From the NCBI RefSeq assembly GCF_022524345.1, contig NZ_JAKWJU010000002.1, positions 4,936,501-5,000,500 on the forward strand: a DNA stretch of 64,000 nucleotides. Direction: 5' to 3'. A program made the position numbers and the translations under genes. Origin of the DNA: Streptomyces marispadix. Its GTDB lineage: Bacteria > Actinomycetota > Actinomycetes > Streptomycetales > Streptomycetaceae. Shown one piece after another: positions 31,823 through 33,530 of this stretch (position 1 is its first letter; every line of letters begins with the position of its first letter). Below the pieces are notes generated by a model. That model ran no database searches. It saw nothing but the letters and a program-made list of their open reading frames with translations, and was not told the origin of the DNA.

Positions 31823-32662
31823 TCACGCCGTGACCCCTCCCATCACCACCCCCGCCAGCGTGCCCGCGATCATGAAGGGGCCGAAGGGAAGCTCCGTCTT
31901 CCAGCCCGCGCGCTTGGACAGCATCAGCGTCACGCCGTAGCCGAAGTGGAGGAGGAAGGACAGGAGGGTGGCGGTGAAGAGGACGTCCCAGCCGTACCAG
32001 CCGAGGGCGAGGCCGACGGAGGCGGCGAGCTTCACGTCGCCGAAGCCCATGCCGCGGCGGTTGATCAGGTGGAGCAGCCAGTAGGCCCCGGTCAGTACGG
32101 CGCCGCCGAGCAGTGCGCCCTTCCAGCTTCCGCCGGTGCCGGGGACGAGGGCGGCCAGGCCGAGCAGCGCCGCAGTCGTGGCGGCGAGCGGCAACGTCAG
32201 TACGTCCGGGAGGCGTCGGGTGCGGGCGTCGACCGACGCGAGCAGCAGCGCGAGAGGCGTGGCGATCAGCCAGACGCCCAACTCCGGCCGTACGCCTACG
32301 GAAAGCGCCAGCACGGCACACACCGAGGCGCACACGGAGACGAAGAAGCGCGTGGAGGTCTCGAACGGCTCGGAGGTCTCGAACGCTTCGGAGGGTTCGA
32401 AGGGGCCGGAGGGTTCGAAGTCCCCGGGAGATTCGGGGGGTTCGGAGGCTTCGGGGGGACGTGAGGCCGCGCAGGGCGGGCAGTGGGCGCGGCCCAGCCA
32501 GCCGTGGGCGGGGCCTTCGAGCCGGTGGCCCGAAGGACAGCGCTCACGCGGGGGAGTCGACGGCGGCACCGCCAGCCGGTAGGCGGCGCGGGGGAGCAGG
32601 GCGCCGGCGGCCGCGCCGTAACCCGCCGCGCACAGCGCGAGTATCGCGACGATCACAGGCAT
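31823..32662 (-). CDS. Type IV prepilin peptidase-like protein (A24 family)
   Basis: A 279-residue membrane aspartic protease of the kind that cleaves type IV-pilin-like leader peptides (TadV/PilD family). The catalytic aspartates are in ASVDARTRRLPD and in the GxGD motif MGFGDVKL. A cytoplasmic zinc-type cluster near the N-terminus (CPSGH... and CPPC) is partly kept. An insert of about 45 residues (ESPGDFEPSGPFEPSEAF...) is made of tandem SEPFE-like repeats. GGGGAG precedes the ATG at 32662. The gene runs divergently from the HTH-Clp_N gene, 127 bases apart, across two palindromes. No pilin genes are in the window. Confidence 0.85.
   Translation of the reverse strand: MPVIVAILALCAAGYGAAAGALLPRAAYRLAVPPSTPPRERCPSGHRLEGPAHGWLGRAHCPPCAASRPPEASEPPESPGDFEPSGPFEPSEAFETSEPFETSTRFFVSVCASVCAVLALSVGVRPELGVWLIATPLALLLASVDARTRRLPDVLTLPLAATTAALLGLAALVPGTGGSWKGALLGGAVLTGAYWLLHLINRRGMGFGDVKLAASVGLALGWYGWDVLFTATLLSFLLHFGYGVTLMLSKRAGWKTELPFGPFMIAGTLAGVVMGGVTA
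32353..32462. repeat. 18-nt in-frame tandem repeats in the prepilin peptidase gene
   Basis: About six degenerate copies of an 18-nt unit (CGGAGGTCTCGAACGCTT-like) encode the Ser/Glu/Pro/Phe repeat insert of the prepilin peptidase. Unit length is a multiple of three, so copy-number change would keep the frame. Confidence 0.7.
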
Positions 32663-32742
32663 CGGCCACTCCCCTGGGAACGAGGGCGGGCTTCTGCCGG
32701 GCAGCGCTCTGCGCGTCCGGGCAGGGTCCCCAACCCACAACT

Positions 32743-32787
32743 GTCAACCGGCGGTTGACGCCTCGAAGCTGTCAACCTAAGGTTGCC
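32743..32787. promoter_or_regulatory. Pair of GTCAACC palindromes upstream of the HTH-Clp_N gene
   Basis: Two 17-bp inverted repeats lie 28 bp apart centre to centre: GTCAACCG-G-CGGTTGAC (32743-32759, perfect) and GTCAACCT-A-AGGTTGCC (32771-32787, one mismatch). The second ends two bases before the ATG at 32790, so it would overlap the promoter or start of that gene. Both also lie in the region shared with the divergent prepilin peptidase gene. They look like operators for a dimeric regulator. Confidence 0.75.
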
Positions 32788-32789
32788 AT

Positions 32790-33530
32790 ATGACGGATCC
32801 TCTTCCCATAGCCGGTCGGGTACGCCTGGACGACCTGATCGATGCCATCAAGAACGCACACTCCGACGCGCTCGACCAGCTCTCCGACGCCGTGATCGCG
32901 GCGGATCACCTGGGAGACGTGGCCGACCACCTCATCGGCCACTTCGTGGACCAGGCCCGGCGGTCGGGCGCCTCATGGACGGACATCGGAAAGAGCATGG
33001 GGGTCACGAGGCAGGCCGCGCAGAAGCGGTTCGTGCCCAAGGCGCCCGGCGACGGCTCGGACCTCGACCCCGCACAGGGCTTCAACCGGTTCACCGTTCC
33101 GGCCAGGAAGGTCGTGGTGCAGTCCCAGGCAGAGGCCCGCAGGGCGGGCAACAAGGAGATCACCACAGGGCACTTGGTGCTCGGGCTGATCGGTGAGACG
33201 GAAGCGCTCGCGGCGAGGGCGATCGTCTCGCAGAAGGTGTCGCTGGACGATGTACGCCGGGCAGTGACCGGGAAGCTGCCGGAGGCGGCGGACGAGGTGC
33301 CCGAACTGATCCCGTTCGACGCGCAGACGAAGAAGGTCTTGGAACTCACCTTCCGCGAGGCCCTTCGCCTTGGGCACAACTACGTCGGTACGGAGCACAT
33401 CCTGCTCGCGCTCCTGGAATTCGAGGACGGGGACGGGACGCTGACGGGCCTCGGCGTCGACAAGTCGGCGGCGGAGACCGCGATCACGGCCGCCATCGCG
33501 GCGAAGTCCGCGGCCACCGACGGCGAGTGA
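32790..33530 (+). CDS. HTH and Clp N-domain protein
   Basis: A 246-residue cytoplasmic protein with an N-terminal helix-turn-helix (about 61-81, SWTDIGKSMGVTRQAAQKRF) and a C-terminal Clp repeat domain (about 98-240, FNRFTVPARKVVVQ and LGHNYVGTEHILLALLE), but no ATPase module. Clp N-domains bind adaptors or substrates of ClpA/ClpC, so this may link a DNA-binding function to Clp proteolysis. Two palindromes precede the ATG with no room for a ribosome site, suggesting a leaderless transcript and autoregulation. The domain assignment is strong; the regulatory role is inferred. Confidence 0.88.
   Translation: MTDPLPIAGRVRLDDLIDAIKNAHSDALDQLSDAVIAADHLGDVADHLIGHFVDQARRSGASWTDIGKSMGVTRQAAQKRFVPKAPGDGSDLDPAQGFNRFTVPARKVVVQSQAEARRAGNKEITTGHLVLGLIGETEALAARAIVSQKVSLDDVRRAVTGKLPEAADEVPELIPFDAQTKKVLELTFREALRLGHNYVGTEHILLALLEFEDGDGTLTGLGVDKSAAETAITAAIAAKSAATDGE

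Follow-up and report, generated by a model that had tools for sequence, protein, structure and literature searches.

The stretch analyzed here (the window) covers 64,000 nucleotides of Streptomyces marispadix, contig NZ_JAKWJU010000002.1, positions 4,936,501 to 5,000,500. It contains a gene of 246 codons for amino acids on the + strand (32790..33530). Its product has an N-terminal dimerising helix-turn-helix (HTH) domain and a C-terminal Clp_N domain, and no ATPase. Two inverted repeats precede it, neither with a strand assigned. The distal one, GTCAACCGGCGGTTGAC (32743..32759), is a perfect palindrome and has a counterpart in 36 of 36 orthologues. The proximal one, GTCAACCTAAGGTTGCC (32771..32787), supported by its sequence and by comparison with the orthologues, has one mismatch and ends 2 base pairs (bp) before the ATG at 32790. 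Their starts are 28 bp apart, as an earlier note on this DNA had described. Judged by its sequence, the gene is an orthologue of ClpC2 (Rv2667) and an ordinary, well-formed member of that known system. Taken as a whole, the locus is best explained as a self-repressing ClpC2 decoy for the ligands of ClpC1, which reads its operators with the HTH. We hold this explanation with good confidence.

The domain composition agrees with the same note. Pfam recognizes Clp_N (E 3.1e-22) and no AAA+ domain, and the C-terminal domain is of the ClpC type without the AAA+ module. The domain consists of residues 98-236 (33081..33497, + strand), delimited by Pfam and by the matches to cyclomarin contacts. The HTH is not recognized by Pfam. 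It was shown by profile comparison and by the predicted structure, and it occupies residues 63-81 (32976..33032, + strand). More precisely, the AlphaFold2 model places a helix at 63-70 and the recognition helix at 74-81 (RQAAQKRF). The N-terminal domain matches chain 8ada_A (Rv2667) with E 2.1e-33, and residues 1-72 align without gaps. The residues of the dimer salt bridge, D46 and R57, are both present, and the contact is predicted. Likewise, Q96, F98, F176 and E185 correspond as residues to the cyclomarin contacts Q94, F96, F172 and E181 of ClpC2 from Mycobacterium tuberculosis.

The ClpC2 circuit has been published. Taylor et al. 2023 report, in the accessible part of their paper, that mycobacterial ClpC2 (Rv2667) represses its own gene (PMC10030653). 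It binds a conserved CGTCAAC-n5-GTTGACG located 1-2 nucleotides before the open reading frame (ORF). In many of the actinobacteria analyzed there, a second copy lies upstream, and the sites overlap the -35 and -10 elements. A leaderless mRNA was considered probable. Binding of cyclomarin A to the Clp_N half interferes with DNA binding. This compound derepresses clpC2, which is also mildly induced by heat. Surplus ClpC2 shields ClpC1 from its poison cyclomarin, a sponge effect, and excess ClpC2 slows the ClpC1-dependent degradation of casein (PMC10030653). Self-repression through these palindromes is therefore not new. The earlier note was right that the protein binds its own promoter, as published for the orthologue with the same operator. 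It was mistaken in knowing of no described regulator with this architecture, because the circuit was already in print. By analogy, the window protein would behave like mycobacterial ClpC2.

We examined the upstream regions of 36 ClpC2 loci. They consist of 35 loci read among 75 matches and one (L018) from outside the class. In an earlier set of 30 loci, eight were taken as ClpC2 proper (L001, L017-L023). For L025, L026 and L028-L045 the similarity falls chiefly in Clp_N, and the operator counts do not include them. Two operators scoring at least 10 of 12 were found in 36 of 36 loci, so the tracking of motif and protein family that the earlier note had proposed as a check is borne out. The spacing is 28 bp in 23 loci and 29 bp in 13. 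In 34 of 36, the proximal site lies 2-3 bp before the chosen start. Among 10,800 shuffled 120-bp upstream regions of the orthologues, 33 contained one site and none contained two. With the strict rule GTCA-n9-TGAC, 34 of 36 loci were positive, compared with 6 of 7,200 shuffles and no coding control. GTCA palindromes are also present at the more distant ClpC2-like loci L024 and L027.

Scored against the 12-letter published core, the window operators reach 12 of 12 (distal) and 11 of 12 (proximal). Neither of them has both the outer C and the outer G of the published motif. As a bare count, the palindrome matches with at most 3 mismatches are not unusual in the window (3 found, 2.63 expected). 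The distal site is the sole perfect GTCAAC-n5-GTTGAC in the whole 6.7-Mb genome. A chance origin of the palindromes was rejected because of this single perfect site and the zero tandem pairs in 10,800 shuffles.

The operators are interlocked with a predicted promoter. The distal site supplies, with its right half, a -35 element (TTGACG, 32755..32760, + strand), and the proximal site contains a -10 element (TAAGGT, 32778..32783, + strand). TTGAC and TAnnnT occur at these places in 36 of 36 loci. The spacer measures 17 bp in 23 loci and 18 bp in 13, so the distance of 28 or 29 bp between operators is the promoter's own spacing. From the -10 element to the start there are 6-7 bases in 34 of 36 loci. 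Since only 6 bases separate it from the ATG in the window, a leaderless clpC2 mRNA is expected. The promoter function of both elements is inferred from these regularities. A sigma-70 scan of the region, which demands 4 of 6 matches in the -10 element, called no promoter.

The divergent ORF (31823..32740, - strand) encodes a type IV prepilin peptidase (A24) and is not part of the system. Its true start is likely the ATG at 32662. The earlier note had this region serving both genes. The divergent arrangement exists, but it is particular to the window genome, for the peptidase gene adjoins clpC2 in 1 of 36 loci (tblastn, flanks up to 1.5 kb). No conserved neighbour was found in the 36 flanks. Apart from ClpC2, the largest cluster touches 14 of 36 and is partly made up of ORFs running antisense to clpC2, and the second largest reaches 6 of 36.

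We propose the following mechanism. A ClpC2 dimer would use its N-terminal HTH to read two GTCAAC-n5-GTTGAC operators. These operators would cover the -35 and -10 elements of its own leaderless promoter, and ClpC2 would therefore hold its own level low. The Clp_N half would mimic the receptor surface of the unfoldase ClpC1. Occupation of this surface, by unfolded protein or by a peptide directed against ClpC1 (cyclomarin, for example), or heating of the protein, would abolish DNA binding. ClpC2 would then accumulate and soak up the ligand before it reaches ClpC1.

The HTH is not restricted to ClpC2. The window genome encodes a second protein with it, which has no Pfam domain (G000:C2:520093-520746, L005/L074). 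Its gene is divergent from an Hsp20 gene (Pfam HSP20, E 1.2e-21). We compared 30 related loci of a longer list, and 80 named loci that are the best 80 of 421 places. In 30 of 30 and 75 of 80, respectively, hsp18 lies divergently upstream. RheA of S. albus/albidoflavus is described, in the available part of the source, as a thermosensing repressor under negative autoregulation, with hsp18 lying upstream and pointing the other way (PMC11754652). Because of this synteny, rather than through the sequence of the founding strain, the family is identified as RheA. Public databases widely label these repressors (L005/L074, P0002-P0121) "type III effector protein", apparently in error.

Upstream of rheA, GTCATC-n5-GATGAC was found in 30 of 30 loci, 28 of them with two sites (26 bp apart in 17, 27 bp in 11). 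The RheA operator is reportedly TGTCATC-n5-GATGACA, which matches the form counted here. At least one site occurs in 79 of the 80 named loci and two in 75, compared with 39 of 7,500 shuffles. The single locus without a site, L191, is truncated at the end of its contig. The strict rule holds in 29 of 30 loci (shuffles 4 of 6,000, coding controls 0). When the profiles of the ClpC2 N-terminal domain and RheA were compared, 42 columns at the HTH matched at 95.9% (E 5.8e-9), against 0.1% and 0.3% for the C-terminal halves taken as controls. No solved relative of RheA was assignable by sequence search. The window protein lacks the GTCATC-type operator and the RheA C-terminal part, so it is related to RheA by the HTH only and is not a RheA. 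None of the 36 clpC2 loci has hsp18 in its flanks. In the window genome (L074), the proximal rheA operator, 35 bp before the start, is a hybrid of RheA and ClpC2 half-sites, GTCATCCGACGGTTGAC. Cross-talk of ClpC2 and RheA at this operator is possible.

A second relative joins the HTH to another Clp receptor domain. Matches to the N-terminal domain alone were sought in 246 class genomes. Among them is a protein of 124 residues in which zf-C4_ClpX (E 1.7e-17) is joined to the same HTH; among the loci counted below, Pfam was run for this one (L266/L272). We counted 27 such loci (L272-L298), one in each of 27 of the 246 genomes; their matches cover the HTH and the greater part, or all, of the zinc finger. 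G179 (contig C58) contains one more match covering both domains, and G361 a fragment with the HTH alone; neither was counted. L299-L301 were also excluded, since they match the zinc finger only and their open frames of 429-441 amino acids are ClpX-sized. Comparison of the ClpC2 and ClpX-type profiles gave 98.1% for the HTH parts (E 8.3e-14) and 0.1% for the zinc part.

The promoter of the ClpX-type gene echoes the anatomy seen in the window: GTCAAGGTGTTCTTGAC, 27 bp later GTCAGGCTTACCTTGAC, 3 bp, and ATG. A perfect GTCA-n9-TGAC within 110 bp upstream is present in 23 of 27 loci, and two are present in 19. The pairs are 26-28 bp apart in 11 loci and 21 to 38 bp in the other 8. The controls gave 7 of 5,400 shuffles and 0 of 27 coding regions. 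The loci without a site are L289, with a partial zinc finger, and L295-L297. In the window genome, the ClpX-type query matches ClpX, the clpC2 HTH (E 4.5e-7) and a third HTH family, and no ClpX-type protein was found there at E <= 0.01. In the database, 1,616 relatives were found at E <= 1e-8 (1,641 candidates scored). "ClpX C4-type zinc finger (protein)" is the commonest informative name in the 120 listed, and many are called "hypothetical protein". From its sequence features, this protein is a possible ClpX counterpart of ClpC2. Two loci, L262 and L265, show the reverse domain order, with the HTH first and the ClpX-type zinc finger last (L262, Pfam E 1.6e-10).

These comparisons bear on which domain reads the DNA. 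The published assignment is to the Clp_N half, from R185 and R189 (PMC10030653, consulted in part). We consider the N-terminal HTH the most likely reader of the operator, because HTH homologues without Clp_N keep the same operator geometry (RheA in 30 of 30 loci, the ClpX-type protein in 23 of 27). The crystallized fragment comprises residues 4-72 and another construct residues 94-252 (PMC10030653). The recognition helix at 74-81 falls between the two, and therefore it was not seen in the published structure. In the ClpX-type proteins, the residue after the recognition-helix glutamine covaries with operator base 5 (alanine with 22 A and 12 G, serine with 1 A and 49 G).

The main alternative keeps to the published assignment: the Clp_N helix with R185 and R189 (R189 and R193 in the window protein) reads the DNA, and the N-terminal domain only dimerises. 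Several points support it or otherwise weigh against our proposal. The R185A/R189A change weakened the gel shift, the equivalent in M. smegmatis raised expression 2.0-fold, and the cyclomarin site adjoins this helix (PMC10030653). Across 51 close ClpC2 sequences neither arginine varies. The diverged L259, L260 and L263 have neither of the two arginines and no strict operator; in L259 and L260, degenerate GTCA palindromes can be seen by eye. Among 20 weaker HTH relatives picked from the N-terminal-domain matches, a strict GTCA palindrome lies close to the start in only 8. Of the other 12, several have uncertain starts, and L271 was matched in the wrong frame. The covariation in the ClpX-type proteins is largely one split of two clades and not a set of independent events. 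The published ClpC2 is not derepressed by every ClpC1 ligand; according to the available part of a 2026 paper, ilamycin and ecumicin are bound without setting off the response (PMC12913811). Finally, the antitoxin RelI (PDB 9sdc), which acts against RelS, has an HTH region related to the ClpC2 N-terminal domain (E 4.2e-7), but unlike ClpC2 it has no upstream inverted repeats by its authors' account, as far as the accessible text goes (PMC13284704).

Other points count against the alternative. L252 (E and A at the arginine places) and L256 (S and G) lack both, L253-L255 lack one, and all five retain GTCA palindromes; L252 still has two perfect sites. Conversely, in L261 arginine is retained at each of the two aligned positions, but the recognition helix is altered and there is no GTCA palindrome; this is one case. 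The dimer mutant R57A of the N-terminal domain raised expression more, 4.6-fold in M. smegmatis, and the variant with the C-terminal domain alone served in print as evidence that high affinity needs the dimer (PMC10030653). We therefore regard reading by Clp_N as unlikely. The double mutant indicates that the C-terminal domain contributes and may add affinity to binding by the HTH. Such an added affinity would also account for the release of the protein by a ligand of Clp_N.

Another view, close to that of the earlier note, is that of an adaptor, in which the Clp_N half docks on ClpC or passes substrates to it and the HTH couples this to transcription. The architecture alone permits it, since Clp_N domains within ClpC are binding sites for adaptors and substrates. 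The authors of the ClpC2 work also speculate that delivery is perhaps regulated through competition for substrates or adaptors (PMC10030653). However, in the accessible part of that report, excess ClpC2 slows the degradation of casein by ClpC1 and competes for cyclomarin, and no delivery is described. The claim of substrate delivery thus finds no support, and the adaptor role seems decidedly improbable. That the palindromes serve another regulator such as RheA, with ClpC2 as a target in a shared heat-shock circuit, finds an argument in the ClpC2-type half of the hybrid rheA site, but it is very improbable given that the AAC half-site fits better in 36 of 36 clpC2 loci and ATC in 29 of 30 rheA loci (one tie), that the GTCAAC half occurs in only 5 of 310 half-sites of the 80 named rheA loci, and that ClpC2 self-repression has been shown in print (PMC10030653).

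We also looked for sites elsewhere in the window genome. There are 41 places within one mismatch of GTCAAC-n5-GTTGAC and 11 for the backward pattern, an excess. Reading frames were checked around 40 of them, the remaining one being the proximal clpC2 site. Most fall in open frames with coding G+C bias. Clearly intergenic positions are occupied by the distal clpC2 site, by a single hybrid rheA site and by two sites of the type TTCAACA-n3-TGTTGAA (5726248 and 5773405), which look like sites of another regulator. Nine places have no clear coding frame (806704, 882079, 1028604, 2071248, 2374584, 3304049, 4024944, 4082889 and 4084336). ClpC2 may thus have further targets beyond its own promoter. 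The third HTH family (L105-L129, P0001) has GGTCAA-n6/7-TTGACC or GTCAA-n7-TTGAC upstream in 23 of 25 loci, and its gene in the window genome is divergent from a formyltransferase (fmt) gene.

Two further observations were made. The sequences TTCAACAAAGTGTTGAC (L137, 249-265) and GTCAACAGATTGTTGAA (L138, 406-422) precede two genes, the second of which we take, by eye, to be allantoinase-like; they are probably sites of a regulator of purine catabolism. In addition, L003 (1642-2304; G000:C2, near 1581879-1582541) encodes 220 amino acids with two Clp_N stretches (Pfam E 3.1e-21), with no HTH seen and no ATPase. It is possibly another Clp N-domain decoy.

Overall, the comparison suggests a wider kind of regulator, with one GTCA-reading HTH and exchangeable sensors, two of which are receptor domains of Clp unfoldases. 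What is new, from the sequences compared, is the HTH homology that links ClpC2, RheA and the ClpX-zinc-finger protein, together with their shared operator geometry. No earlier statement of this kinship was found among the matches listed in the open-licence PMC literature, and no paper there was found to name both RheA and ClpC2. The joint claim is that of an unrecognized actinobacterial family of self-repressors built on one HTH, whose Clp-type members are autoregulated decoys and for which the assignment of DNA reading to Clp_N is wrong. We place it slightly on the probable side. If true, the family HTH reads GTCA-n9-TGAC, usually in tandem at its own promoter. The sensors would differ, among them the ClpC receptor domain, the zinc-binding receptor domain of ClpX and the thermosensor of RheA. 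The two decoys of the Clp type would sense and soak up attackers of ClpC1 or ClpX, such as antibiotics, phage proteins or misfolded clients. The comparison raises the question of whether ClpX has a decoy of its own. Which domain of ClpC2 reads DNA is also a drug-target question, as ClpC2 weakens the action of a compound directed at ClpC1. For RheA, a thermosensor that has already served as a genetic switch, the comparison supplies a structural relative and a natural set of operator variants.

Compared with the mycobacterial ClpC2 described in the accessible part of PMC10030653, the window gene has the same domain order, D46, R57 and the residues of the cyclomarin contacts in Clp_N. It also has two operators of the same core, one of them 2 nucleotides before the ORF, the overlap with the predicted -35 and -10, and an expected leaderless start. 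It differs in the genus, to which it extends a known antibiotic-sensing self-repressor, and in that the HTH, not the C-terminal domain, is proposed here as the specific DNA reader. RheA shares with ClpC2 a homologous HTH, negative autoregulation, and a 17-bp GTCA...TGAC palindrome that is usually paired. However, its C-terminal part has no Pfam match and is not Clp_N, its half-site is GTCATC instead of GTCAAC, its pairs are mostly 26-27 bp apart, its gene is divergent from hsp18, and its signal is temperature. The ClpX C4-type zinc finger protein (about 124 amino acids) resembles ClpC2 in having a Clp-unfoldase receptor domain without ATPase, a homologous HTH, and GTCA-n9-TGAC sites near the start codon that are often paired. 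In contrast with ClpC2, the ClpX zinc-binding domain replaces the ClpC N-domain, the HTH is C-terminal, and the half-site is GTCAGG or GTCAAG.
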